Virus record (IMG/VR): IMGVR_UViG_3300009130_000061
Location: 1 to 40,642 of that record
DNA length: 40,642 nucleotides
Direction: 5' to 3' (one strand)
DNA from: a virus
Shown here one piece after another: positions 6,400-40,642 of this stretch. Both the position numbers and the translations under genes were made by a program. Below the pieces are notes generated by a model that did no database searches, was not told the DNA's origin, and worked only from the letters and a program-made list of their open reading frames with translations. Within the stretch, counting starts at the first letter, position 1. Each line of letters opens with the position of its first letter.

Positions 6400-6428
6400 T
6401 TGACCGCATTCAAAAAATGTGATACGAT
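6400..6428 (+). promoter_or_regulatory. Sigma70-type promoter for the family-A polymerase gene
   Basis: A -35 box TTGACC (6400-6405), a 17-bp spacer and a -10 box TACGAT (6423-6428). The ATG at 6435 begins 6 nt after the -10 box, where the transcript itself should start. No Shine-Dalgarno fits between, so a leaderless mRNA is predicted. Confidence 0.75.
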
Positions 6429-6434
6429 CTGAAT

Positions 6435-7637
6435 ATGTTATTTCAAATAATAGATAACAAACAAGTATGTCCGAGTATATACTCAAATAGACAAATTATT
6501 AATGATCCTCAATATGAAACCTTAACCAAAACATGGTCATATAATTCTTCTCTAAAAGATTATGATATTGATTATGCATCTTTATATGTTGGTGGGAAAT
6601 CATTGGACGAATGTTGTCCTGACATTTTAAAAGATAAATGGGAAAAAGTCAAACAAAAACATTTGGCACTTCTTAAGAGTTTTGAGATTGGTAAGGTTAA
6701 TTATAATGATTATTGTTTTTATGATCTTGTTCCAGAATCTTTTGTGATGGAATATTTTGAAGCCAAGTCTCAAATCACTGATCATGTTCTTAGTACACAG
6801 GAAAAGCCATCAAATTATGATTTCATGGTAGAGTTGTCTGAATTGGTTAATGATATAGCAAAGAATAAATTAACCTTAAACACATCAGGATTAGATGAAT
6901 CCCTACATCAATTGAGAACAAGAAAGTTCAAAGACAAACTTCACAGGATAAGTCCTTATGTTAAGTATAATGTCTTTGGAACAATCACAGGACGACTAAC
7001 CACAAAGAAGGATTCATTTCCAATTCTTACAATGGACAAAAATTATAGAAAGATAATTCAACCAAAGAATGATTGGTTTATTGAATTGGATTTTAACGCA
7101 GCAGAACTAAGGTGCTTGCTGGCACTAAACGGAGTTGATCAACCAGAGATGGACATCCATGAATGGAATGGGAAAATCTTAAATAAATTATTTGATCATA
7201 TAATGGACAGAGATGAAATTAAACGTAAGATCTTTAGCTGGCTTTATGGGCCGCCAAATGCTTCTCTTGGTATCCCTGAAATTGAGGGATATTATAATAA
7301 AAAAGAGGTGCAAAAGAAATATTGGAACGGTACACAGATAGAAAATCCTTTTGGTCGGATCATTGAGGCCGATGAATTCCACGCTTTAAACGCAATCATT
7401 CAAAGCACCACATCAGACACATTTTTAAGGCGAGCAATCGCAGTAAATAAAATGTTAAAGAATAGAAAGTCCTTTACAATGGGGCTTATTCATGATAGTA
7501 TGGTGATTGACTATGACCGTAATGACAAAGATTTATTGGAAGATTTAATAAAAGAATTTGGTAACACCGAGTTGGGTAAATTCAAAGTAAATGCTAGCTT
7601 GGGAACAAATTTTGGTAACATGAGGAAGTTTCGATGA
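6435..7637 (+). CDS. Short family-A DNA polymerase (no exonuclease domain)
   Basis: A 400-aa protein with all three family-A polymerase motifs. Motif A is ELDFNAAELR (~residue 217, metal-binding Asp plus E and R). Motif B matches R-x3-K-x3-F-x3-YG exactly (RDEIKRKIFSWLYG, ~258-271). Motif C is LIHDS (~351). The template-binding FGTITGRLTT lies before motif A. Motif C carries Ser where most family-A enzymes have Glu (HDE); the essential Asp is kept. At 400 residues only thumb, palm and fingers fit; no 3'-5' exonuclease motifs are visible in the N-terminal 150 residues. It could replicate DNA or act in repair or primer processing, since a full DnaE lies at 25.8 kb. The start is fixed by the promoter and overlaps no other gene; the next gene overlaps by ATGA. 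Confidence 0.9.
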   Translation: MLFQIIDNKQVCPSIYSNRQIINDPQYETLTKTWSYNSSLKDYDIDYASLYVGGKSLDECCPDILKDKWEKVKQKHLALLKSFEIGKVNYNDYCFYDLVPESFVMEYFEAKSQITDHVLSTQEKPSNYDFMVELSELVNDIAKNKLTLNTSGLDESLHQLRTRKFKDKLHRISPYVKYNVFGTITGRLTTKKDSFPILTMDKNYRKIIQPKNDWFIELDFNAAELRCLLALNGVDQPEMDIHEWNGKILNKLFDHIMDRDEIKRKIFSWLYGPPNASLGIPEIEGYYNKKEVQKKYWNGTQIENPFGRIIEADEFHALNAIIQSTTSDTFLRRAIAVNKMLKNRKSFTMGLIHDSMVIDYDRNDKDLLEDLIKEFGNTELGKFKVNASLGTNFGNMRKFR

Positions 7638-7945
7638 GCACCAAACAATTTAATAAGCTTGTAAGGGATCGCATTCCCGAAATTATTAAAGAAAAGGGTA
7701 AGAGCTGCAAATTCAGAATCGCAGACACTAAAGAATATCGCCGGAAGTTAATGGAAAAACTCCAAGAAGAAACGTCAGAATTCATTGAAACTCCCTGTGT
7801 TGAAGAATTGGCAGATATTCAGGAAGTCATTGATGCTCTTTTGAAGGAGTATAGGTGGACTGGCCTGAAAGCGGTGACAGAATTTAAAAAAATAACACGC
7901 GGTGCTTTTCGTGACAAGATTATTCTTGAGGAGGTTTCAGAATAG
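7634..7945 (+). CDS. MazG-like nucleoside triphosphate pyrophosphohydrolase
   Basis: A 103-aa protein beginning with FNKLVRDRIPEII, the hallmark of small all-alpha NTP pyrophosphohydrolases related to MazG and HisE (COG4997-type). Acidic residues expected to bind Mg2+ are seen in EKLQEETSEF (~42-51) and VEELADIQEVIDAL (~56-69), which form the E..E...E..D pattern. Such enzymes hydrolyse NTPs to NMP and pyrophosphate, clearing damaged nucleotides or, in some phages, altering the (p)ppGpp response. The ATG overlaps the polymerase stop and its own TAG overlaps the next GTG start, so the three genes look translationally coupled. The substrate is not predictable from sequence. Confidence 0.8.
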   Translation: MSTKQFNKLVRDRIPEIIKEKGKSCKFRIADTKEYRRKLMEKLQEETSEFIETPCVEELADIQEVIDALLKEYRWTGLKAVTEFKKITRGAFRDKIILEEVSE

Positions 7946-8778
7946 TGGACACCATCATCGGTCTTGGAAACGCCGGTTGCAATATAGCAGACGAGTTTGC
8001 CAAATATTCCCAGTATTCTATCAAAAAAATCGATGTTGGTCTTGAGAAGACCAAGACCACCTTCCCCATAAAAGAGTGTGAAAAGATTGAAGATTACGAA
8101 GAAAAACTGCCCACACTTCAGCATTTTTTCAGGGGTATCCATGGTGATATCCTCTTTGTCGTCGGTGGTGGTGGAAAAATATCATCAGCCTCCCTAGCCA
8201 CCTTACGTTATTTAAAAAATAAATGCAAAATTAATGTTTTATATATCCGACCAGAGTTATCTTTACTAAATGAAACCCAATCAAAACTAGAAAGATTGGT
8301 TTACAACGTTTTTCAAGAGTATGCAAGATCCGGTGTGTTTGAAAGACTCTATTTGGTATCAAATGAAGAAGTCGAAGCGGTCCTCGGAGGCGTCTCTATT
8401 AAAGATTACTATAATAAAATTAATCAAATGGTTGTTTCCACAATTCATATGATTAATGTTTATAATAACAACGAATCATTAACAAATACCTTTAGTGATC
8501 TGCCCGTGGGGGCAAGGATTACATCCATAGGCATGAGCGATTTAGAAAAAAATGAGGATAATATGTTTTTTTCTCTTGACAGCGTGTCTGATATCGTGTA
8601 TTATTACACACACAATAAAACAAAGATTGAAACGGATCCAGAATTAATGAGCAAAATAAGAAAATCAATATCGACTCATAAGGAAGAAGGTTATAGAGTT
8701 ACTTATGGAATTTACGAAACGGATTACGATCAAGATTATATTTATTGTTTAAATCACACTTCGGTGATACAAAAATAA
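7945..8778 (+). CDS. Divergent FtsZ/tubulin-superfamily protein
   Basis: A 277-aa protein with a GTG start overlapping the upstream stop and a strong GAGGAGG site at about 7929. The order of motifs follows FtsZ: nucleotide-binding GLGNAGCN (6-13), then GDILFVVGGGGKISSAS (67-83) where FtsZ has the GGGTGTG phosphate loop, then a strand VLYIRPEL. Next come LYLVSNEEVEAVLGG (135-149), matching FtsZ 'ITIPNDKLLKVLG', and a helix. After that comes TNTFSDL (180-186), roughly where FtsZ has NxDFxD. The tubulin signature is altered (K-I-S-S replaces T-G-T-G) and the first catalytic Asp of NxDxxD is missing, so GTP hydrolysis may be weak or absent. There is no C-terminal tail for FtsA/ZipA binding. It could form a phage filament (PhuZ-like), or poison host FtsZ. 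The fold is inferred from motif order only. Confidence 0.7.
   Translation: MDTIIGLGNAGCNIADEFAKYSQYSIKKIDVGLEKTKTTFPIKECEKIEDYEEKLPTLQHFFRGIHGDILFVVGGGGKISSASLATLRYLKNKCKINVLYIRPELSLLNETQSKLERLVYNVFQEYARSGVFERLYLVSNEEVEAVLGGVSIKDYYNKINQMVVSTIHMINVYNNNESLTNTFSDLPVGARITSIGMSDLEKNEDNMFFSLDSVSDIVYYYTHNKTKIETDPELMSKIRKSISTHKEEGYRVTYGIYETDYDQDYIYCLNHTSVIQK
8576..8604 (+). promoter_or_regulatory. Intragenic sigma70-type promoter for the SSB gene
   Basis: Inside the 3' part of the FtsZ-like gene: TTGACA (8576-8581), exactly 17 bp, then TATTAT (8599-8604). The -35 box is a perfect consensus. The expected start is near 8611, giving a leader of about 220 nt before the SSB ATG. The leader contains the hairpins described at 8785-8825. 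A weaker extended -10 (TGATACAAA, 8765-8773) is also present closer to SSB. Confidence 0.6.
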
Positions 8779-16124: not shown

Positions 16125-16482
16125 ATTCAAACCGTTTAATAAACACGTCTTGGTCCAAAAAACCGCCGAGAAAAAATCTCCAGATTTGAGTCCTGTGTTA
16201 ATTCCAGAAGACGCAAAATTAGAGAATAAAGAACGGTACGGTTTGGTGGAGTTTATATGTGCTGCCACGGATTGTGAAGGTTTTTTGAAAGGATTAAACC
16301 CAGAACAACCAACATGGGCAACACAAACAGGAACTATGGATGATGTTTTTACTACTTCGGCCAAAGCCAATGGACATACCAATTTGGTTGTAGATCAAAG
16401 AATGGTTGAAGAAATAAAAATAAACGATAGATTATTCCACGTTGTCCATCAAAATTATATTGTTGGAATTGTTGACGAATAA
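16117..16482 (+). CDS. GroES-like co-chaperonin (T4 gp31 role)
   Basis: A 121-aa protein. It begins FKPFNKHVLVQK, matching the first strand of GroES (IRPLHDRVIVK). A flexible segment with SPVLIPEDAK follows where GroES has the mobile loop ending in its hydrophobic IVL. It ends RLFHVVHQNYIVGIVDE, matching the last strands of GroES (DEVLIMSESDILAIVEA). Between these is a ~45-residue segment longer than in GroES (LKGLNPEQPTWATQ...), as often seen in phage co-chaperonins. It would cap a chaperonin during folding, either the phage GroEL encoded at 35.4 kb or the host one. The start overlaps the upstream gene and ATG is used. The fold call rests on both ends of the protein matching; the partner is inference. 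Confidence 0.72.
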   Translation: MCKFKPFNKHVLVQKTAEKKSPDLSPVLIPEDAKLENKERYGLVEFICAATDCEGFLKGLNPEQPTWATQTGTMDDVFTTSAKANGHTNLVVDQRMVEEIKINDRLFHVVHQNYIVGIVDE

Positions 16483-16492
16483 GGAAAAAGTT

Positions 16493-17185
16493 ATGAAAAT
16501 AAAAGATTTAAAGGTAATGATAAAAGAGGCGATGGACGAACCGCAAATCTTACTATCCAAACCAGGTCTAATTAAAGAAGCAAATTACGGTCGTGTAAAG
16601 CACCGGATTGAGCAAGATAAAATTCCTTTTGCTATGCTCACTGCGTTTCGTGGTGATTATAGTAATGAGGAAAATGCTTCTCGAAATGCAGAATTAAAAA
16701 TGTCCCTAGACACCGCTGGTTTCCCATATACCCAAATGCCCGGAAGTGGGTACAAAGAAGGCGGACCAACCGGCGATGTTGTGGTGGAAGATTCTCTTAT
16801 AGTATGGGATGAATCACGGGGTGATAAATTTCCCACGTCTGAAGAATTATTTAATCTTGCAAAAGACCTTGCAAAAGAGTTTGAGCAGGATTCCTTCATT
16901 TATGGTGGTCCACGTAAAGGAAAAGAAGATAATCCATACGCTATTCATCTTTATACCAATAGTGGTGAAATTATTGATGAAATTTGGGCCGGTGGTGACG
17001 AAGGGTATGAAGAATTATTTGTTGTCGATGACGCCGCAGAATATTGGAGTAAAATTGCAGGCCGAAAAACCCAATTTAAAGAAATTTATGATAAATGGAA
17101 TAACGCCAAGTCCACTTCTCGCCTCGAAGCGATGAAAAAACAATATTATTTAAATCTAGCTGAAAGCAAGATGAAAAATGGGTAA
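16493..17185 (+). CDS. DUF3293-like phage protein of unknown function
   Basis: A 230-aa protein; the ATG at 16493 has AAGGA 7-11 nt upstream and is preferred over an in-frame TTG at 16442 within the previous gene. It opens with a helical MKIKDLKVMIKEAMDE tail. From residue ~40, PFAMLTAFRGDYSNEENA, then RNAELKMSLDTAGF and GSGYKEG, resemble the DUF3293 family ('TA.NP...eeN...N..L...L...G......G....g'). The centre is acidic. No enzyme activity is known for this family to my knowledge. It lies between the GroES-like gene and the cupin gene. The family match is by eye and moderate. Confidence 0.6.
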   Translation: MKIKDLKVMIKEAMDEPQILLSKPGLIKEANYGRVKHRIEQDKIPFAMLTAFRGDYSNEENASRNAELKMSLDTAGFPYTQMPGSGYKEGGPTGDVVVEDSLIVWDESRGDKFPTSEELFNLAKDLAKEFEQDSFIYGGPRKGKEDNPYAIHLYTNSGEIIDEIWAGGDEGYEELFVVDDAAEYWSKIAGRKTQFKEIYDKWNNAKSTSRLEAMKKQYYLNLAESKMKNG

Positions 17186-20706: not shown

Positions 20707-22908
20707 TTATTCCTCATCAACTAGAGTCATAGCCATTTTGAAGACTTGACCAGTCACATTATTTCTAATACGAATATGGTCAGATTCCTCGAAAAGTGTC
20801 CAATCACCACGCTCATTCTTCATGTGGAAATCACCTGTGTATAGATTGGTTGCATAGATATCCGTCACCGGAGCTGCATCTGTACCTATCTGTGTCACAC
20901 CCGTTAGTGTACCAACTGCCAATGAAGCCATCCCATCAGTTACCTCATCACCAGTAAGGGTGGTGAAAGTACCAGCAGCCTTAGAAGCTGCACCGATTAT
21001 TGTACCATCGATATTACCACCATCTAAATTAACACTATCACAATGCAATGAAGCAAGGTTAGCTGCACCAGATCCAGATAGGGTAGTGAAAGTACCAGCC
21101 GCCGCCGACGCCCCACCGATGGTCACACCATCAATATTACCACCATCAAGATTAACGCTGTCACAATGAACCGAAGCAAATTGAGCAGCACCTGAACCAC
21201 TAACAGTTGTACCAACTAGAGCAGCGAATGTACCAGCAGCAGCAGAAGCCGCCCCAATGGTTACACCATCGATATTACCACCATCAAGATTAACACTATC
21301 ACAATGAAGTGATGCAAGGTTAGCTGCACCAGAACCACTAAGTGTGGTTACTACCGCCGTTGAAGGACTAGCAGCGCCAATAGTTGTTCCATCAATTGAT
21401 CCACCATTAAGATCCATAGTTGTGACAGTACCCATATCGGCTACTGTACGACTAGCATTGGTCCAGTTGTTTGCCATTGATGCAATTCCAAGTGCGTTAA
21501 TAGTATCAACATCACGAGAGCCATCTAGAACAAGGGCTTTATTCGCAGCACCCGTACCATCAGTAATTCCATCAAGTTTTTCCAAATCAGTTTCATTAAG
21601 GTCCGCAGAACCGATGATAAAGCTACCACCAGCAGTTACAGAACCAGAAGTTACAACATTTGGCCCTTGAAGGTCAACAGATGCTGAAAAGAACGCTGTT
21701 GAAAGAGCAGCATATTTGGTTGAACCAAGGCTCAAATCCAAAGATGTACTATAATCAATAGTTGCTGAGTCTTCCCCAAGAGTAAACGAAGATGCACTTA
21801 CAAAACTAGAAGCAGAAAGCGAAGTCGCTGCTATAGTTGTTGCAGTAACCGCTGCCGCAGAAGCCGCACCGATAATTGTGCCATCAATGTTACCCCCATC
21901 TAAGTTAACACTATCACAATGAAGTGATGCAAGGTTAGCTGCACCAGAGCCAGTAAGTGTGGTTGCAGCAACAGCTGCAAACGTACCAGCCGCAGCCGAT
22001 GCCGCACCGATGGTCACGCCATCAATGTTGCCTCCATCTAAGTTAACACTATCACAATGAAGTGATGCAAGGTTAGCTGCACCAGAACCACTAATGGTAG
22101 TGGCAGTTACGACTCCCAAGGTTGATGTACCCGTCACCGTCATCGCATCAATGTGACCAGCGTCAGCATGAACTTCCGCCCATTGTTTAGTCGAAGAACC
22201 AAGATCGCTAGTTGAGTCATTAGCAGGGATAAAGTCTGTATCACAAAGCCCGTTGAACTCAATTACATTCCCAGAGTTAGTTCCCAACACGACATCACCG
22301 TTAGCAGTCATTTGGGTAAATGTAGCAGCGGCTGTTTCAGCTGCCCCAATTACTGTTCCATCGATATTACCACCATCAAGATTAACACTGTCACAATGAA
22401 TCGAAGCAAATTGCCCAGCACCTGAACCAGAAATAGCAGCACCTGCTATAGATCCGTCAACAGCTACAGAAGCACCCTGAAGTGCGCCCGAGCCAGAAAG
22501 TGCGCCAGCTACTTGAAAGCCTGCACCGCTTGCCAACATCGTAGCATAAACGCTACCACCTAATCTCAAGTCAAGATTAGCGCCGTCATAAAGAACCGCC
22601 GCTAATTCTGTAGCGGTAGCACTACCACCGATTTGAAGACCAACATCACTTGTCCCTTCAGTGCCACTTACCGCAGCGATAATTTTCTTATCTGAAACTT
22701 CCAGTGTACTTTCAGTTTGTTGAACACTGTTAATTGTATAAACATCAAGCTCAGTAATTTTTGCGTAAGACGCAGTTAAAGAGTTGATATTTTTAAGTTG
22801 AACACCCGATGCAGATGATGTCATAATTTGTGTCATCGTCTGTCCGTTGTGTCCAACTTGGATTTGTCCGAGGGAGCCTGTTTCTCCCTGAATACCCCAT
22901 TTAGCCAT
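20707..22908 (-). CDS. Repetitive tail-fibre protein
   Basis: A 733-aa protein on the opposite strand, with AGGAG just before its ATG. It is rich in Gly, Ala, Ser and Thr and has six copies of HCDSVNLDGGNIDG plus one degenerate copy, each followed by TIGAAS-like text. These repeats are typical of beta-helical fibre shafts in marine phages. The N-terminal region (TGSLGQIQVGHNGQTMTQIM) would attach to the virion. The C-terminal ~50 residues (LYTGDFHMKNERGDWT...) form a compact module shared with the fibre gene at 24.9-25.4 kb. No intramolecular chaperone peptidase domain is seen. It probably contributes to host adsorption. A divergent ~300-bp gap separates it from the LamG genes. Confidence 0.85.
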   Translation of the reverse strand: MAKWGIQGETGSLGQIQVGHNGQTMTQIMTSSASGVQLKNINSLTASYAKITELDVYTINSVQQTESTLEVSDKKIIAAVSGTEGTSDVGLQIGGSATATELAAVLYDGANLDLRLGGSVYATMLASGAGFQVAGALSGSGALQGASVAVDGSIAGAAISGSGAGQFASIHCDSVNLDGGNIDGTVIGAAETAAATFTQMTANGDVVLGTNSGNVIEFNGLCDTDFIPANDSTSDLGSSTKQWAEVHADAGHIDAMTVTGTSTLGVVTATTISGSGAANLASLHCDSVNLDGGNIDGVTIGAASAAAGTFAAVAATTLTGSGAANLASLHCDSVNLDGGNIDGTIIGAASAAAVTATTIAATSLSASSFVSASSFTLGEDSATIDYSTSLDLSLGSTKYAALSTAFFSASVDLQGPNVVTSGSVTAGGSFIIGSADLNETDLEKLDGITDGTGAANKALVLDGSRDVDTINALGIASMANNWTNASRTVADMGTVTTMDLNGGSIDGTTIGAASPSTAVVTTLSGSGAANLASLHCDSVNLDGGNIDGVTIGAASAAAGTFAALVGTTVSGSGAAQFASVHCDSVNLDGGNIDGVTIGGASAAAGTFTTLSGSGAANLASLHCDSVNLDGGNIDGTIIGAASKAAGTFTTLTGDEVTDGMASLAVGTLTGVTQIGTDAAPVTDIYATNLYTGDFHMKNERGDWTLFEESDHIRIRNNVTGQVFKMAMTLVDEE
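21004..22398 (-). repeat. Six near-identical 42-bp fibre repeats
   Basis: Each copy encodes HCDSVNLDGGNIDG, at 21004-21045, 21127-21168, 21265-21306, 21880-21921, 22018-22059 and 22357-22398. Spacing is always a multiple of three (123, 138, 615, 138, 339 bp), so recombination between copies would keep the frame and change fibre length. Confidence 0.9.
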
Positions 22909-32339: not shown

Positions 32340-32367
32340 TTGACTTTTTTATAGGCTATGTTATACT
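32340..32367 (+). promoter_or_regulatory. Sigma70-type promoter for the IscU gene
   Basis: TTGACT (32340-32345), 16-bp spacer, TATACT (32362-32367). The ATG at 32374 is 6 nt after the -10 box; a leaderless transcript is predicted. GTTATACTT is shared with the GroEL promoter. Confidence 0.85.
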
Positions 32368-33641: not shown

Positions 33642-33992
33642 ATGAGCAGCGAACAGGGCACAACTACTACCTCGGAAGATCAACGCCGAGAGTTTGTTTT
33701 AGATTTCATTAGACAGAAATCTTTAATAACAATAAAGGACAACCTCATCCTTTCAGAAAAGGTATTTGTTATTAATGCCGTTTTAAGGTGGTGCTACGAA
33801 AAAGCCCATCAAAAGCAAATGACTCCCGCTTTATGGGGGAAATATAAAAAAATGATCGCTCAATATGTCGCTGGTGTGGTGGATATCGAGTGGACAGATA
33901 ACAATTTTAAAATAATAGAGGTGCCAATTGAAAATGACAAGCCCAAACCAAGAAGAAGAAAACAAAGAACAAGACGAACCGATCCCGAATGA
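33642..33992 (+). CDS. Small basic-tailed protein of unknown function
   Basis: A 116-aa protein with AAGG 11 nt upstream. The core is helical (EFVLDFIRQKSLITI, VINAVLRWCYEKAH), and the last 20 residues are strongly basic (KPKPRRRKQRTRRTDPE), suggesting nucleic acid or membrane-phosphate contact. It overlaps the ClpP-like gene by 59 nt. No family recognised. Confidence 0.65.
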   Translation: MSSEQGTTTTSEDQRREFVLDFIRQKSLITIKDNLILSEKVFVINAVLRWCYEKAHQKQMTPALWGKYKKMIAQYVAGVVDIEWTDNNFKIIEVPIENDKPKPRRRKQRTRRTDPE

Positions 33993-34593
33993 TATCTTGT
34001 TTCTCCCTGAACTTTTCGGTTCTGAGCCTAAATCTCGTTTACTTGGTTTATATGGTGAAGTAAACGAAGATCGTTGCAAGACAGTCGCGTCGGGCTTGTA
34101 TTATTTCCGGGACACTGGCTTCACTGAAGAAACCATTGAATGCGAAGAAGACGAAGAATCCATCGTTAAAACCTCTTATCTCCCAATTGATTTCATGATT
34201 TCAACCGAGGGTGGCAGTGTTCCTGATATGTTCGCTTTATATGATTGTATGCGTGATGTGAGAAAAGACTGCCAGATTAATACCTTTGGCGTTGGCCGAG
34301 TGATGTCAGCAGGTGTTCTTATTTTGGCTGGCGGAACTAAGGGCAACCGCAAAATTGGAAGGCATTGTAGGTTAATGCTTCATGCAATAACTGGTGGCCA
34401 ATTTGGTTCCCTTAAGGAACTGGAAGTTGATCTTCGGGAAGTAAAATGGTATCAGGCTCAGTATGTTAAAGCATTAATGGAAGAAACGAATCTAACTGAG
34501 AAGCAGATAAGAACTATCTTTCGTAAGAAAACGGACACATATTTTGATGCAGAGCAAGCACTTAAGTGGGGAATCGTAGATGAAATTATTTAA
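33934..34593 (+). CDS. ClpP-like serine protease
   Basis: A 219-aa protein; ATG at 33934 with GAGGTG upstream is preferred over a TTG six nt earlier. The ClpP fold is visible: LLGLYGEVNED, FMISTEGGSVPDMFALYDCM (oxyanion region), GVGRVMSAGVLIL with the nucleophile Ser125, and RLMLHAITGG with His150. DTYFDAEQALKWGIVDEI follows, where ClpP has the catalytic Asp and 'EA..YGLVD'; an Asp is present near 199. A 10-15 residue acidic insert (ECEEDEESIVK, 69-79) precedes the GGS strand. It would degrade peptides, alone or with host ClpX/A; Clp-binding residues cannot be judged. Some phages use ClpP-like enzymes for maturation, but no maturation gene lies nearby. Confidence 0.85.
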   Translation: MTSPNQEEENKEQDEPIPNDILFLPELFGSEPKSRLLGLYGEVNEDRCKTVASGLYYFRDTGFTEETIECEEDEESIVKTSYLPIDFMISTEGGSVPDMFALYDCMRDVRKDCQINTFGVGRVMSAGVLILAGGTKGNRKIGRHCRLMLHAITGGQFGSLKELEVDLREVKWYQAQYVKALMEETNLTEKQIRTIFRKKTDTYFDAEQALKWGIVDEII

Positions 34594-35353
34594 TGATATC
34601 TGCGAGTTCTTAATTAAAGCAAAGCAAGATCCATCAGTCTATCGTCGCAAAGCCACTGAGCGAGAGGCAACCAAAACAACGGTCGATTCGGGTCAGTTTA
34701 TTATAGCCAACGGAGGAGAGCATCCTATCGACTGGGACAGAGTAGTCCCATTCACTCGACCAGAAGGACTTCTATTGCCCAAAAGTTGCTATAAAAGGGC
34801 AAAAAACGGAAGAAAACCCACAATGCTGGTGTCTCATTGGGATGTTTGCTTATCATCCAAAAGTTGCTTTAATATACTAAAAAAACGCAAGCTATCGGTC
34901 CATTTCTTAATTGATAACGATGGCACCATTTATCAATTAATGGACTGCAACAATATTGGTTTCCACGCCGGAAATAGAAAAGTTAATAATAACAGTATTG
35001 GTGTGGAAATATCCAATGCTTATTACCCCAAATATCAAAATATATATCGCTCCAGAGGTCATGGAGCCCGACCAATCTGGAAAGACGTTAAAGTCCACGA
35101 TCAAACGCTTGAACCATTTCTCGGATTTTATCCCGTACAGCAACAAGCATTCCAGGCACTCGCTAAAGCGTTGCACAAGGTGTATGACATTCCCCTTGTT
35201 ACACCCATGAAAGATGATGAACCTTCAAAGACTATAGTGCCAGCAGTATACAAGGGCACTTACAAAGGTGTTGTAAATCATTATCATGTTACAAAAAGAA
35301 AAATTGACTGCGCTGGCTTTGAGTTAGATAAACTTTTAAAAGAAATCGCTTGA
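34580..35353 (+). CDS. N-acetylmuramoyl-L-alanine amidase (endolysin)
   Basis: A 257-aa Amidase_2-type protein, overlapping the ClpP-like gene by 14 nt, with GGGGA before the ATG. Zinc ligands are expected at VSHWD (His86), at HYHVTKRKIDCAGF (~234-247; His and Cys as in T7 lysozyme), with HFLIDNDGTIYQLMD, GFHAGNR and SIGVEIS as family hallmarks. It cleaves the bond between MurNAc and L-Ala in peptidoglycan at lysis. No signal peptide or wall-binding domain is visible, so a holin or other release path is needed. A coiled-coil/TM protein at 37.0 kb is a candidate. Confidence 0.9.
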   Translation: MKLFNDICEFLIKAKQDPSVYRRKATEREATKTTVDSGQFIIANGGEHPIDWDRVVPFTRPEGLLLPKSCYKRAKNGRKPTMLVSHWDVCLSSKSCFNILKKRKLSVHFLIDNDGTIYQLMDCNNIGFHAGNRKVNNNSIGVEISNAYYPKYQNIYRSRGHGARPIWKDVKVHDQTLEPFLGFYPVQQQAFQALAKALHKVYDIPLVTPMKDDEPSKTIVPAVYKGTYKGVVNHYHVTKRKIDCAGFELDKLLKEIA

Positions 35354-35378
35354 CAAACCCATAAGTCGGTGTTATACT
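35350..35378 (+). promoter_or_regulatory. Sigma70-type promoter for GroEL
   Basis: Consensus TTGACA (35350-35355), 17-bp spacer, TATACT (35373-35378). The ATG at 35386 is 7 nt after the -10 box: leaderless mRNA predicted. No CIRCE-type inverted repeat or heat-shock sigma box is seen. Confidence 0.88.
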
Positions 35379-35385
35379 TCTACAT

Positions 35386-36954
35386 ATGAAACATTTTGAA
35401 TCTGGTCGCCAACTCAATGAAAAGATTATGGTTGGCGTAAATAAACTCGCCGACGCTGTGGGGGCTACTCTTGGTCCACGCGGACGCAACGTCATCCTTA
35501 AAGGCAACAATACCAAACCTATCATTACTAAAGATGGTGTGACTGTTGCAAAATTCTTCGATTTAGAAGATCCTATCGAGAATCTTGGAGTGCAAGTTAT
35601 AAAGCAAGCATCCGAATCGACCAACAATACGGCAGGAGATGGCACAACCACTTCAACGGTTCTCTCTCGTGCTATTCTAGAGAAAGCCCAGATGCATCTT
35701 TCAACAAATGTATCTCCTATCGAATTAAAACGAGGCATCGACACCGCAATTTTAACAATTATTGAGGAATTGAGAGAAAAGGCCAAACCTGTTTCAACCC
35801 AAGAGGAAATTGAACAAATTGCTACCATTTCTGCAAATGGTGACAAAGGTATTGGTAAACTAATCGGCGCAGCCGTAGATCAAGTCGGCAAAGATGGTGC
35901 AATTACAATTCAAGAAGCTAAGTCCAATGAAACTTCTTTAGAATTAACTGAAGGTTTTAGATTTGACTCTGGCCTATTAGCTAACGCCTTCATTACTGAT
36001 GAGCGACGTGGCGCGATGAGGCATGAAGACTGTCTTATCTTGGTTACAGATAAAAACATTACAACTATTGATGAAATCTTGCCAGTTCTTGAGATCGCCG
36101 CCCGTGATGGCCGACCACTTATCTTAATCGCCGAAGACATTTCAGGCCAAGCACTAGCAGCGATGATAATGAACGCGATGAAAGGAGCCATGAAAGTTGC
36201 AGGCATCAAAGCCCCACGCTATGGTGAAGAACGAAGAAACATTCTGTCGGACTTATCGATCTCTACCGGCGCAACGTTCATTTCTCGTGAAAGCGGAATA
36301 CAATTTCGTTCCGTTAAGTTGGAGCATTTTGGCACAGCCACCACCGTCGAGGCGGGCAAAGCATTTACCACCATTGTTGGCGGCAATCAAGATGACGAGG
36401 CAGTTGAAAAGCGAATTGAAGATCTTAAGTCTCAAATTGAATCCGAAGAAAGTTTAAATATATGCGAAAAGATTCAAGAAAGAATTACTCGGTTGGCATC
36501 TGCCATCGCAATCATTAAAGTCGGTGGCTTGACCGAGGTTGAGATGATTGAAAAGAAACATCGTGTTGAAGATGCGCTTGAGGCAGTTAGTTCCGCACAA
36601 CAAGAAGGGATTATACCCGGAGGTTCTTCTGCTCTATTACGAGTTGCCCGTAAAATAAATATTGAGACAGAAAACAAGGAACAACAACTCGGAGTAGAAA
36701 TTATAAAGGAAGCGATTAAAGCACCATTTAGAAAGATGGTGTTAAATGCTGGGCTGTCACCGGATATTTATTTAGAAAAAGTAGAAAACCATACCAATCC
36801 TGATTCTGGATTAAATGTGACCACTGGTGAGATTGTTAACATGTATTCTTATGGAATTATTGATCCATTTAAGGTCGTGCGTTGTGCTCTTGAAAATGCG
36901 GCGTCTGCTGCATCAACACTGCTTTTAACCGATCACGCGATTGTGGAGGAATAA
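35386..36954 (+). CDS. groEL: GroEL-type chaperonin (complete)
   Basis: A 522-aa protein close to full length (E. coli 548). ATP-binding LGPRGRN and GDGTTTSTVL (~85-94) match GroEL, as do RVEDALEAVSSAQQEGIIPGG (~390-411; the catalytic Asp of RVEDAL is present) and the end INMYSYGIIDPFK-like block TGEIVNMYSYGIIDPFKVV with LENAASAAS. The apical domain (~190-370) is present. The C-terminus stops at HAIVEE and lacks the GGM repeat tail that lines the GroEL cavity. It could fold phage virion or replication proteins. The GroES-like gene at 16.1 kb may be its lid. Phage-encoded GroEL is known but rare. Confidence 0.95.
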   Translation: MKHFESGRQLNEKIMVGVNKLADAVGATLGPRGRNVILKGNNTKPIITKDGVTVAKFFDLEDPIENLGVQVIKQASESTNNTAGDGTTTSTVLSRAILEKAQMHLSTNVSPIELKRGIDTAILTIIEELREKAKPVSTQEEIEQIATISANGDKGIGKLIGAAVDQVGKDGAITIQEAKSNETSLELTEGFRFDSGLLANAFITDERRGAMRHEDCLILVTDKNITTIDEILPVLEIAARDGRPLILIAEDISGQALAAMIMNAMKGAMKVAGIKAPRYGEERRNILSDLSISTGATFISRESGIQFRSVKLEHFGTATTVEAGKAFTTIVGGNQDDEAVEKRIEDLKSQIESEESLNICEKIQERITRLASAIAIIKVGGLTEVEMIEKKHRVEDALEAVSSAQQEGIIPGGSSALLRVARKINIETENKEQQLGVEIIKEAIKAPFRKMVLNAGLSPDIYLEKVENHTNPDSGLNVTTGEIVNMYSYGIIDPFKVVRCALENAASAASTLLLTDHAIVEE

Positions 36955-36979
36955 GGAATTTCCCCTACTACTTACTACC

Positions 36980-37261
36980 GTGAGTGCGCTTGAACAACAG
37001 ACTATTGCCGAATTATCTACACGAGTAGAATTTTTGGAAGACAAAATAATGGATGCTTTGGAGGTTGTTAAAGAAAATCAAGAGCGTATGTGTGTGGACA
37101 TCGCAAAAATCAAAGAAGCAGTATATAATCCAGATCAAGGACTTTATGCACGATTAAGAATTCTTGAAGAAGAAAGTAAAAGCAGGGCAAAATTTTTATG
37201 GATTCTCCTTTCAATGGGGATCGGTTCCATAGGCACTGCTCTTATGTCACATTTAAGTTAA
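36980..37261 (+). CDS. Coiled-coil protein with a C-terminal membrane helix (holin-like candidate)
   Basis: A ~93-aa protein from a GTG at 36980; a TTG at 36941 within groEL is an alternative, and neither has a strong ribosome-binding site. Residues ~5-45 form a charged coiled coil (STRVEFLEDKIMDALEVV), then YARLRILEEESKSR and one membrane span FLWILLSMGIGSIGTALM near the end. A helix followed by a terminal span resembles XhlA-type hemolysin/holin accessory proteins, which sit beside amidases in phages. Here the amidase is one gene away (groEL between). Function is inference. Confidence 0.6.
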   Translation: MSALEQQTIAELSTRVEFLEDKIMDALEVVKENQERMCVDIAKIKEAVYNPDQGLYARLRILEEESKSRAKFLWILLSMGIGSIGTALMSHLS

Positions 37262-37278
37262 TTAATAATTTATTTTGC

Positions 37279-37307
37279 TTGACACTTCCTTATCATTATG
37301 TTATTAT
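37279..37307 (+). promoter_or_regulatory. Sigma70-type promoter at 37.3 kb
   Basis: Consensus TTGACA (37279-37284), 17-bp spacer, TATTAT (37302-37307). Start expected near 37314, a short leader before GAGGG (37321-37325). Confidence 0.8.
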
Positions 37308-37336
37308 TATAAGCACAAATGAGGGAACCGTCAAAA

Positions 37337-37993
37337 ATGTCACAAGATTCATCTAGTAATTACCCTACACCTGAAACAAAACTTCAATTTAGAATAGAAA
37401 AAATCCTTAAAGAACCTCTTAATGAGAGCACCCGACAATTTCTTGAGTCGGTCTATGCTTACTATAAAAAGAGTGGCGACTTAACCGAAAAACAATTATC
37501 AGCATTTGAAAAGATAGAAAGTCGATTTTCCCCTCAAGAAAAGTTAAAATTTGAATCTTGGAAACAAGATTATGCGGAACATTACAAAGCCGATGCCCTT
37601 ATAATCGCTCAATATTATGCCAAAACTGGTTATTATGTAAGTCTTGCTGCTAAAATTATGGAAGATGAAACCTTTGTGCCCAACAAAAAAGATTTTATGC
37701 GTATGTATACCAACAAATATGCTCAAAAAGTCATCGTTGCAACTCACCAAACTCCTAAATTTGCTGTAGGAGACATGGTACAACTGCGAGCAACGATAGG
37801 AAAAGCTTGGCAAGACAAACACCAGAAAAAGCTAAAATTAAGAAAATGTTTTGTTCTGGAAAACGATCTTCTTGTGGTCAATGCAGTCAACGGAGCAAAA
37901 AGATATAGAGTGCTGCCCTTGGGTAGTTCTGATATACTTGAGATTGATGAAAGATTTTTAATGAAACCCGACAAAAGGGGAAGGAATTCATAA
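37337..37993 (+). CDS. Phage protein of unknown function
   Basis: About 218 aa from the ATG at 37337, chosen because GAGGG lies about 11 nt upstream; an in-frame ATG at 37319 is closer to the promoter but has no ribosome-binding site. The N-terminal ~80 residues are charged helices (FRIEKILKEPLNESTRQFL, LTEKQLSAFEKIESRF). The C-terminal ~80 (PKFAVGDMVQLRATIGKAW ... KCFVLENDLLVV) look like a small beta-barrel of an SH3/KOW type. No family is recognised. It starts the last block, before the MORC-like gene. Confidence 0.65.
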   Translation: MSQDSSSNYPTPETKLQFRIEKILKEPLNESTRQFLESVYAYYKKSGDLTEKQLSAFEKIESRFSPQEKLKFESWKQDYAEHYKADALIIAQYYAKTGYYVSLAAKIMEDETFVPNKKDFMRMYTNKYAQKVIVATHQTPKFAVGDMVQLRATIGKAWQDKHQKKLKLRKCFVLENDLLVVNAVNGAKRYRVLPLGSSDILEIDERFLMKPDKRGRNS

Positions 37994-38367
37994 TGAAAGT
38001 AGTAGTAAGTTATGCTTGTGACTTGGAAGACATTCCACAAAACGCAAGCGAATTGTTAAACAATTTAACGGAGCAGTTTTATACTGCGGAAAGAATTTTG
38101 GATGAAGCCATCGAACAATCATGCGACAATTCAGTTCCTGCCGCTATGGAAACTATCGATGATCTTCGTCAGATATTGGCAAAGATCGATTTGCGGTTGA
38201 TGGACTGCTCAAGTATTCTTGCGGGATATTCTAAAACAAATGCAGACATTAGACTCGGACATGTTCCAAATCAAGTGGCGCAAGGTACACAAGAAGTTGT
38301 TCCACAAGATATTCTAAGCGCAGTGGGAGATACACATGTTAATTCAGAAAAAAACCAAAATGATTAA
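37993..38367 (+). CDS. Small helical protein of unknown function
   Basis: A 124-aa protein with AAGGGGAAGGA before the ATG, which overlaps the upstream stop. The first ~90 residues are helical (ASELLNNLTEQFYTAERIL, IDDLRQILAKIDLRLMDCSS) and the last ~30 are polar. No motif recognised. The next gene overlaps it by 32 nt. Confidence 0.65.
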   Translation: MKVVVSYACDLEDIPQNASELLNNLTEQFYTAERILDEAIEQSCDNSVPAAMETIDDLRQILAKIDLRLMDCSSILAGYSKTNADIRLGHVPNQVAQGTQEVVPQDILSAVGDTHVNSEKNQND

Positions 38368-38614
38368 ATTAGTTGAAGTAGTTGAGAGTGATGGACATTA
38401 TAATCTCCGCGAGATTGTTTTAAACTCTGCTCACATTATTTCAATGGTTGGTGACAACTTCAGTGCAGGTCTTCACGCGAATGGCAAGCTACCAGAAGGG
38501 CTCCATGAGGCGCAACAATTTTCTAAAGTTGCTTTAGCAAACGGTAAAGAAATTACTGTTGTCGGTAGTCCTGATATGCTGGGGCAAAAAGTAAAAAATA
38601 TTCTTCATGGGTGA
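38336..38614 (+). CDS. Small beta-rich protein of unknown function
   Basis: A 92-aa protein; the ATG at 38336 has GGGAGA 5 nt upstream, so it is preferred to the ATG at 38360. From residue 9 it reads MIKLVEVVESDGHYNLREIV, then NSAHIISMVGDN, VALANGKEITVVG and a final helix. This is a small strand-rich fold distantly like FlbD-type proteins, a loose resemblance only. Function unknown. It ends about 10 nt before a promoter. Confidence 0.65.
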   Translation: MLIQKKTKMIKLVEVVESDGHYNLREIVLNSAHIISMVGDNFSAGLHANGKLPEGLHEAQQFSKVALANGKEITVVGSPDMLGQKVKNILHG

Positions 38615-38624
38615 TTTTTTTTGC

Positions 38625-38655
38625 TTGACATAAGGGTTTTTATATGAGATACTAT
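38625..38655 (+). promoter_or_regulatory. Sigma70-type promoter for the MORC-like gene
   Basis: Consensus TTGACA (38625-38630); the -10 is GATACT at 17 bp (38648-38653) or TACTAT at 19 bp (38650-38655). A leader of ~20 nt with AAGGAGAG precedes the ATG pair at 38679/38682. Confidence 0.7.
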
Positions 38656-38678
38656 ACACATCAAACAAAAGGAGAGTC

Positions 38679-40352
38679 ATGATGACCGCATTTAATACTT
38701 TTTCAACCACTTCTAAACCTATTGTGCCCTTGGTTCCGAGTTCTTTCCCGGTGCCAAACGTTGGGTTGTCCCCCAGTTATCAACTCCCTGATGCGCTGCG
38801 CCATAATCCACCAGGAGCCGATTTCGTCCGTTTTACTGATTGGATAGGAGATTATGACACGACCATGAAACAATTCTCAGCTACATACACTAACCCCATC
38901 GAGAGGTTCAGTGAATTAGGTGATAATGCTTATGACGCTGACGCAAAGAAGTTTTCTATAGATATAAAAATGATTAATGAAGAACCTATGTTGTGCTTCA
39001 CCGATAACGGTAAGGGCATGATGCCAGCAATCATGCAATTACGCTTCTTTCAGGCGCGAAATATTACACGGGAACAACGAGGCCAACATACTTTAGGAGC
39101 CAATGGGGTCGGCGCAAAGGGAGCACTATACGGTCTGGGTGACAAAGTTGATGTAATTAGTAAGCCTAACGGTGCCCCAGATTGTTTTGTTATAGGAAGA
39201 AATTATAAAGGGTTAGTCCGATGGGATTGTCCCGTATCTAAACTATTAAACCCTAGTCACGGAGAATTATATAGGCAAGTTAAAGCTATTTGGGATTCTT
39301 GCGGACCTCAAGCTGATCATGGCACTTTAATAATGGTTAGAGATTTACGCAAAGGTTTCCAGAATTTATATTCGTTTCCAGCAAATACCACGCACTTTCG
39401 TGATGCGGTAGCATCTGGACTAGGATTGGTTTATGACAGGTTGTTAAGCGACAAATTTCAAATCACTGTTTGTGATAAAACTATAAGTCGCGCCGATATT
39501 ACTAAAGGCGGAACTCATTTAACAGATTATGATGAAGAATTCGAGATAATAGATCCTGAGACAGATAAGAAGGTTGTGTTTAGAACTCAATTGTGGCAAT
39601 TCTCTACAAGGATTAAAGACGACCATAATCGCTTAATTTATTGGAGGAATAGCAGGTTTATAGGAAGTGGCATTCGCAGTATTTTTCGCACCAAAATTAA
39701 TAATCAGCAGGAATTTGAGAAAATACAACTCCATGTTTTTGTTAAAGATAATGCTGATGGGCTTTTAAATATTCAAACCAACAAAACAGTTGATGGTTCT
39801 AAACAGGCTCATAAGTCATTTCAGGCGGAAATCCGGAGTCGCTATAAAGCAGCATTTGATGAAATTGCGCCCACTGGCAAAAAAGATTCTGAAGAAGAAA
39901 GCTTACAAAAGGCATTAGCGCACAGCAACGAGGTAAAAGATACAGCACTTGCACAAGTGGTTAAAGGTTTTACCGGGTTTGCTCTTGACGGAGGAGTGGA
40001 GGATTTTACCAAACCGATACCCAAAAGACTGGGAGGAAGTGCTATTCAATATGATAAGCCCGATAAGGAATATAAGCCGAAAGATACGCCTTTTGAATTG
40101 AAGGTAGAATGCGCTTTCCTTGATCATTTACGCCCCGTCGAGTTTGACAAAAAGATTTTACGCGGAAATCGTCTAGAAGTGTCCATGACAATTAATCTGA
40201 GAGATCCTTTAAATCAAGAGATCTTTACGTCTAAAGTAAAGTATGTTAAGGGGAAATTGGCTACTCAACGCCGTGAAGAACTGTTACGTTGGCTTCTCTT
40301 AGAAGAAGACGAGGGTTGTGAGAAATTGGAAAAGTGCTGGGCACAAGAATAA
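38679..40352 (+). CDS. MORC-like GHKL ATPase
   Basis: A 557-aa protein. The N-terminal GHKL ATPase motifs follow MORC proteins: ERFSELGDNAYDAD (~75-88; Asn and Asp bind Mg-ATP), LCFTDNGKGMM (~104-114, N-box/G1-like) and TLGANGVGAKGALYGLGDKV (~139-158, ATP lid). Further on, DHNRLIYWRNSRFIGSGI (~307-324) resembles the MORC 'YhNnRlI' S5-domain segment. Residues ~385-460 are helical and charged. GHKL/MORC ATPases clamp DNA and compact it; prokaryotic relatives occur in restriction systems. MutL, gyrase B and Hsp90 are less likely because the 'DNA.DA' and lid forms fit MORC best. AAGGAG is 4 nt from the ATG at 38679 and 7 nt from that at 38682; the latter may be used. Confidence 0.82.
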   Translation: MMTAFNTFSTTSKPIVPLVPSSFPVPNVGLSPSYQLPDALRHNPPGADFVRFTDWIGDYDTTMKQFSATYTNPIERFSELGDNAYDADAKKFSIDIKMINEEPMLCFTDNGKGMMPAIMQLRFFQARNITREQRGQHTLGANGVGAKGALYGLGDKVDVISKPNGAPDCFVIGRNYKGLVRWDCPVSKLLNPSHGELYRQVKAIWDSCGPQADHGTLIMVRDLRKGFQNLYSFPANTTHFRDAVASGLGLVYDRLLSDKFQITVCDKTISRADITKGGTHLTDYDEEFEIIDPETDKKVVFRTQLWQFSTRIKDDHNRLIYWRNSRFIGSGIRSIFRTKINNQQEFEKIQLHVFVKDNADGLLNIQTNKTVDGSKQAHKSFQAEIRSRYKAAFDEIAPTGKKDSEEESLQKALAHSNEVKDTALAQVVKGFTGFALDGGVEDFTKPIPKRLGGSAIQYDKPDKEYKPKDTPFELKVECAFLDHLRPVEFDKKILRGNRLEVSMTINLRDPLNQEIFTSKVKYVKGKLATQRREELLRWLLLEEDEGCEKLEKCWAQE

Positions 40353-40356
40353 ATAC

Positions 40357-40383
40357 TTGACGCTCCAATAACGGTGTTTACAT
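40357..40383 (+). promoter_or_regulatory. Possible promoter for the Hsp20 gene
   Basis: TTGACG (40357-40362) followed by an extended -10-like TGTTTACAT (40375-40383) at a shorter 15-bp spacing. Weaker than the others. GGAGG at about 40394 precedes the ATG. Confidence 0.5.
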
Positions 40384-40405
40384 TACACTCACGGAGGAAA
40401 ATAAT

Positions 40406-40642
40406 ATGTCATCACTAATTCGTTTCAACAATAATCATTCAGATTTTATCGATAGATTCTTTGGGTTTGATGATCTTTTAACAAGACCACTGGTCAAGGA
40501 AACAAAAGATTACCATAAACCAATTGTCAAGAGTCTTGAAGATAAATATGAAATCTCTTTAATTGCTCCAGGTCTGGAGAAGAAAGATTTTAATATCACC
40601 CTTGAGGGAAACCAAATTACGATCAGTTACGACGCTAGCGAC
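40406..40642 (+). CDS. Hsp20 / alpha-crystallin small heat-shock protein, N-terminal part
   Basis: An ATG at 40406 with GGAGG 10 nt upstream opens a frame that runs off the right edge (79 residues visible). After a phage-like N-terminus with RFFGFDDLL (~17-25), residues ~38-76 are the beginning of the alpha-crystallin domain: PIVKSLEDKYEISLIAPGLE, then KKDFNITLEGNQITI. Small heat-shock proteins hold unfolding proteins and are known from T4-like cyanophages. With GroEL, the GroES-like protein and ClpP-like protease it forms a chaperone set. The C-terminal IxI motif is outside the window. Confidence 0.88.
   Translation, partial: MSSLIRFNNNHSDFIDRFFGFDDLLTRPLVKETKDYHKPIVKSLEDKYEISLIAPGLEKKDFNITLEGNQITISYDASD

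Follow-up and report, generated by a model that had tools for sequence, protein, structure and literature searches.

MORC proteins are DNA-clamping proteins of gene silencing and bacterial defence; in animals and plants they act as gene silencers, and their ancestry probably lies in bacterial restriction-type systems. In GHKL-S5 ATPases, the lysine of the S5 domain touches the gamma-phosphate. MORC ATPases dimerise upon ATP (PMC5811534), and MORC2 both clamps and compacts DNA in an ATP-dependent manner (PMC12216690). An S5 motif, GhXhhpXXRhl, sets the MORCs apart from other GHKL proteins (Iyer et al. 2008; PMC2292703). Besides the MORC ATPase family, paraMORC3, a cargo gene in the P2-like phage PhiR44_1, and the phage protein RIIA are already known. 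RIIA has a known role in counter-defence (PMC11879866, PMC7824862) and, through experiments against RexAB (PMC11879866), provides the precedent for a phage GHKL-S5 ATPase acting in this way. The literature searched contained no free-standing, nuclease-free MORC-type protein carried by a phage as cargo.

The window analysed here is the 40,642-base IMG/VR virus record IMGVR_UViG_3300009130_000061. Its content is that of a large tailed phage, with genes for DNA polymerases, a single-strand-binding protein, UvsX, a DnaB helicase, ribonucleotide reductase, a ClpP-type protease, an amidase and GroEL, and the company of its group indicates that the phage is probably marine. The sole long minus-strand gene, 20707-22908, predicts a protein of 733 aa with no Pfam match and a marginal PHROG match. 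A plus-strand gene at 16442-17185 (247 aa) gives a borderline match to S-adenosylmethionine lyase (2.6e-6, 27.8 bits against a cut-off of 28) and possibly encodes a phage T3-type anti-restriction enzyme.

The ORF of interest is intact at the position and on the strand given in the preliminary description (Table 1). A second ATG at 38682 is better spaced from the GGAG at 38671 and may be the true start. The product matches Pfam HATPase_c_3 (3.7e-12, over the family cut-off), phrog_6203 (1.8e-10), PADLOC REase_II, the MORC3 entry in the PDB (1.2e-6 by phmmer) and NCBIfam BbrUII/HgiDII (5.8e-12, yet far under the 550-bit cut-off of that family). At the level of sequence, similarity to GHKL ATPases is far beyond chance, and the ORF encodes a GHKL ATPase that also has an S5/transducer domain.

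Table 1. Features of the MORC-type gene and its surroundings in the window.
Feature	Position	Strand	Remarks
MORC-type GHKL-S5 ATPase ORF	38679..40352	+	557 aa, ATG start, intact
Domain layout of the ORF product			N-terminal arm, residues 1-60; GHKL, 61-225; S5/transducer, 226-395; linker and C-terminal region, 396-557
Motif I (N-box) ELGDNAYDAD, residues 79-88	38913..38942	+	general base E79, Mg-binding N83
Motif II (G1 box) DNGKGM, residues 109-114	39003..39020	+	D109, G111, G113, M114
Motif III (G2 box, ATP lid end) LGANGVGAKGA, residues 139-149	39093..39125	+	G140, G143, G145, K147
Motif IV GTLIM, T216	39321..39335	+	invariant in alignment A5
MORC-specific S5 signature RLIYWRNSRFI, residues 318-328	39630..39662	+	published motif GhXhhpXXRhl
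K369 codon, S5 lysine	39783..39785	+	nearly invariant in alignment A7
Promoter of the MORC-type gene	38625..38653	+	sigma-70-like, TTGACA-17-GATACT, TG before the -10; from sequence
Ribosome-binding site AAGGAGA	38669..38675	+	upstream of ATG 38679/38682; from sequence
orf92, left neighbour	38336..38614	+	phage core gene, in most relatives
Promoter-like site of hsp20	40357..40384	+	in relatives directly after orf92
hsp20, small heat-shock gene, right neighbour	40406..40642	+	truncated by contig end
Promoters near gene starts	6400-6428, 32340-32367, 35350-35378, 37279-37307, 38625-38653	+	sigma-70-like, extended -10

All of the motifs quoted in the preliminary description were recovered, and the four GHKL ATP-binding motifs are intact. 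The residues by which human MORC2 handles ATP are Glu35, Asn39, Asp68, Gly70/72, Met73, Gly98/101/103, Lys105, Thr197 and Lys427 (PMC5811534). They correspond to E79 and N83 in motif I, D109, G111, G113 and M114 in motif II, G140/143/145 and K147 in motif III, T216 in motif IV and K369 in S5, with spacing within motifs I to III the same in both proteins. The S5 signature satisfies 7 of the 8 constrained positions of the published motif, the sole mismatch being R for the first G. Conservation of K369 among the aligned relatives and an S5 fold in the structural model indicate that the S5 domain with its catalytic lysine is present.

Distant relatives were gathered from viral contigs (12) and genomes (at least 8), and a MORC-type profile was built from 15 proteins, leaving the query out. 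This profile gives the query 83 bits over both domains (residues 78 to 405), whereas the paraMORC3 and paraMORC-kinase profiles give 40 and 32 bits, in both cases over the ATPase domain only. Controls run on the MORC profile gave 9 bits for T4 RIIA, 3 for GyrB, 32 for MutL and 28 for HtpG. Scored by itself, the S5 segment reaches 10-14 bits, with 1000 shuffles peaking at 3.5, but with a six-sequence profile it scores 8.8 bits against a shuffle maximum of 11.4. Because the margin vanishes with the smaller profile, we take the S5 evidence as genuine but of modest weight. Phmmer searches with the query gave 11-33 bits for MORC and paraMORC relatives and 2.7, -2.3 and -2.4 bits for MutL, gyrase B and Hsp90.

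The solved folds nearest to a full-length model, which is poor outside the ATPase module, are MORC3, MORC4, MORC2 and SMCHD1. For a trimmed model (pTM 0.72) MORC3, MORC2 and MORC4 rank first and Hsp90 next, and the match to MORC3, MORC4 and MORC2 reaches a TM-score of up to 0.68 by query length. Both models used the alignment of MORC-type relatives, so that this ranking is partly dependent on the sequence result. A maximum-likelihood tree, the comparison proposed in the preliminary description, placed MutL, GyrB, HtpG and RIIA elsewhere than the query, but could not position the query itself within the MORC clade, setting it on a very long branch and weakly beside the paraMORC3-like L105 (84/73). 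The best curated-family matches are also of the paraMORC3 type, namely BbrUII/HgiDII and phrog_6203, the family of the PhiR44_1 paraMORC3, and are made through the ATPase part.

The product is probably a divergent MORC-type ATPase, a reading to which the profile score over both domains, the S5 signature and the MORC3/4/2 fold all point; membership is only probable because of the long-branch tree and the paraMORC3-type curated matches. The preliminary description had preferred MORC to MutL or gyrase B. Its negative half holds, extends to Hsp90 and agrees with the profile scores, the phmmer results and the model; its positive half is supported by profile, signature and fold but not by the tree or the curated families. 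MutL, gyrase B and Hsp90 were rejected as identities, showing no specific similarity past the GHKL core.

Prokaryotic MORC and MzaB-type proteins share with the phage protein the GHKL and MORC-type S5 module, seen in the two-domain profile match, the S5 signature and the catalytic lysine. They differ in that the phage ORF stands alone, without helicase, endonuclease, Z1 or AIPR partners, in the general base, which is Glu in the phage protein and Asp in most of these relatives, and in their C-terminal region, which the phage ORF does not have in common with them. On the MzaB model the query scores 15.5 bits, compared with 52-114 for most of the MORC-type relatives tested and a cut-off of 850; with the Z1 and AIPR partners also missing, membership of an MZA system was rejected. 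The eukaryotic MORC3, MORC4 and MORC2 are the nearest solved structures by both sequence and fold and the catalytic residues are complete, but identity is only ∼17% and the phage ORF lacks the CW zinc finger and the histone-reading context.

Beyond residue 339 there were no Pfam, NCBIfam or PADLOC matches and no PD-(D/E)xK nuclease domain was detected; the C-terminal 150 residues match nothing. On inspection by eye, this region seemed as if it could be homologous to that of other prokaryotic MORCs, but the idea was dropped after a profile score of -0.4, which is under many shuffles. With a pI of about 5.7-6.0, the linker and C-terminal region are mildly acidic, unlike the expected DNA-binding tail. 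A very divergent nuclease or binding domain may be hidden here.

Such a domain bears on the idea that the protein serves superinfection exclusion or defence between phages, with the ATPase sensing competitor DNA and a C-terminal nuclease or toxin cutting or killing, as in paraMORC3 and Shedu. The ATPase domain does resemble those of paraMORC3, BbrUII-HgiDII and Shedu VcSduA (37-45 bits), the curated matches listed above are of this type, paraMORC3 is itself phage cargo, and VcSduA, which joins GHKL and nuclease domains, is an anti-phage system (PMC12137116). However, on the profiles the S5 domain does not match paraMORC3, and the nuclease that would cut is the domain that was not detected. Nor does a methylase adjoin the gene, whereas the plasmid paraMORC3 genes lie beside cytosine methylases in 4 of the 5 examined, and the window proteins that were scanned included no recognisable integrase. 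Membership of the paraMORC3/Shedu group was rejected, and we regard an exclusion role as unlikely.

RIIA offers a different comparison: it too is a GHKL ATPase borne by phages, and its C-terminus is variable. The protein could be a functional replacement for RIIA directed against membrane-based exclusion, given that the gross architecture is alike, that viral structure matches include many RIIA proteins and that phrog_2979, the RIIA family, has matches in 0 of 17 group records. Against this, no RIIA PHROG match or other family-level sequence match was found, T4 RIIA aligns over 24 residues only and at a non-corresponding place (E 0.008), no RIIB partner was recognised, and relatives without the MORC-type gene likewise lack a phrog_2979 RIIA. 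RIIA was rejected as the identity of the protein, and replacement of its function is very unlikely.

For comparison of the locus, 80 related phage loci were retrieved via GroEL. The gene order clpP-amidase-groEL-orf106-orf224-orf124-orf92-hsp20 is complete in the closest relatives, and a chaperone/protease block including ClpP-type, GroEL and Hsp20 genes (33928-40642) keeps its synteny across related phages. Immediately after groEL, 36941-37261 (+) encodes a small protein, conserved in most of the 80 loci, in which inspection by eye suggests a coiled coil and a membrane segment at the C-terminus; it lies near the amidase gene and is perhaps a lysis protein. In the four closest relatives, whose flanking proteins are 52-80% identical to those of the window, orf92 is followed by hsp20 after a gap of ∼55 nt with no MORC gene. 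The unit inserted between them in the window consists of promoter, ribosome-binding site and ORF. No nuclease, helicase or methylase partner lies beside the gene; the neighbours on both sides are phage core genes, in agreement with the earlier description of a free-standing, phage-borne protein.

Sigma-70-like promoters with an extended -10 occur at 8 sites on the plus strand of the window, where shuffles predict 1.16, and 5 of the 8 lie 7-26 nt ahead of gene starts, including groEL and the MORC-type gene. A search for a terminator after the MORC-type gene found none. From its sequence context, the gene is a single-gene, moron-like cargo with its own predicted promoter. As it stops only 290 bp short of the contig end, it might instead be an assembly chimera, a bacterial MORC gene fused to phage sequence. 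This is highly improbable: both flanks match one phage group alike (orf92 up to 79%, hsp20 up to 80%), GC content (0.407, phage 0.393 ± 0.031), composition and codon usage are in keeping with the phage, and the promoter resembles the others of this phage.

No close homologues were found by protein search in the phage, viral contig and genome contig collections, of which the last has incomplete genome coverage, or with two motif DNA patterns in the viral contigs. A plasmid search gave weak matches only, the majority of them covering the ATPase domain. When 28 larger records, to which the phage carrying L089 had been added as a known carrier, were searched with a profile, MORC-type ATPases turned up in two further GroEL-group phages (L114 and L115), while the same type of search in 40 mostly smaller records revealed none. 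With L089 and L115 as queries, 50,697 phage records yielded only three unannotated faecal scaffolds.

L115 (562 aa, in G007) sits in a collinear cluster between homologues of the window genes 6435-7637 and 7945-8778, surrounded by the single-strand-binding, UvsX and exonuclease genes of a replication cluster, and shows 23% alignment identity to the query. L114 (521 aa, in G018) lies among ClpX, thymidine kinase, Dam-like methylase and ClpP genes (named by sequence reading) and gives no BLAST alignment with the query. L089 is on a phage contig among apparent virion genes (by eye). Since very divergent MORC-type genes occupy different places in the group, they seem to have been acquired repeatedly, separate captures being the simplest reading.

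The gene might instead manage the phage's own DNA and have no part in defence, condensing it before packaging or silencing host or late phage genes. The compaction of DNA by MORC2 is compatible with this, as are the replication genes beside the G007 gene and the apparent virion genes around L089. However, the gene is absent at this place from the four closest relatives and is missing from most of the group, and therefore does not serve a core function; it was acquired at different places and the basic tail is missing. We consider such a role improbable.

The reading we prefer, though tentatively and with rather less than full conviction, is that the MORC-type cargo is an ATP-gated dimeric DNA clamp against host defence. 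A protective role is proposed because the gene is accessory, equipped with a promoter and without nuclease or partner. The phage would have taken up a free-standing MORC-family GHKL-S5 ATPase as single-gene cargo and would make the protein from its own host-type promoter; ATP would bring about dimerisation and closure around DNA, as in other MORC ATPases. The clamp could then shield phage DNA from host defence, or the protein could act as a decoy that pairs with and poisons host MORC-type defence ATPases, such as those of MZA and MORC restriction systems. The RIIA precedent and the borderline S-adenosylmethionine lyase in the same window favour counter-defence, while the unmatched C-terminus, the placement in the tree, the acidic tail, a right flank of just 290 bp and the single sequence without close homologues count against it. 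A broader proposal, that nuclease-free, free-standing MORC ATPases form a new counter-defence class repeatedly captured by large GroEL phages and acting as clamps or in inactive heterodimers, is possible but somewhat doubtful.

In a phage MORC without cutting partners the clamp is uncoupled from the weapon, and a lone phage protein of this kind is a small test system for the action of the MORC motor on DNA. Should it prove to block defences of the host, whether MORC-type or restriction, it would join RIIA as the second family of phage GHKL proteins in counter-defence.
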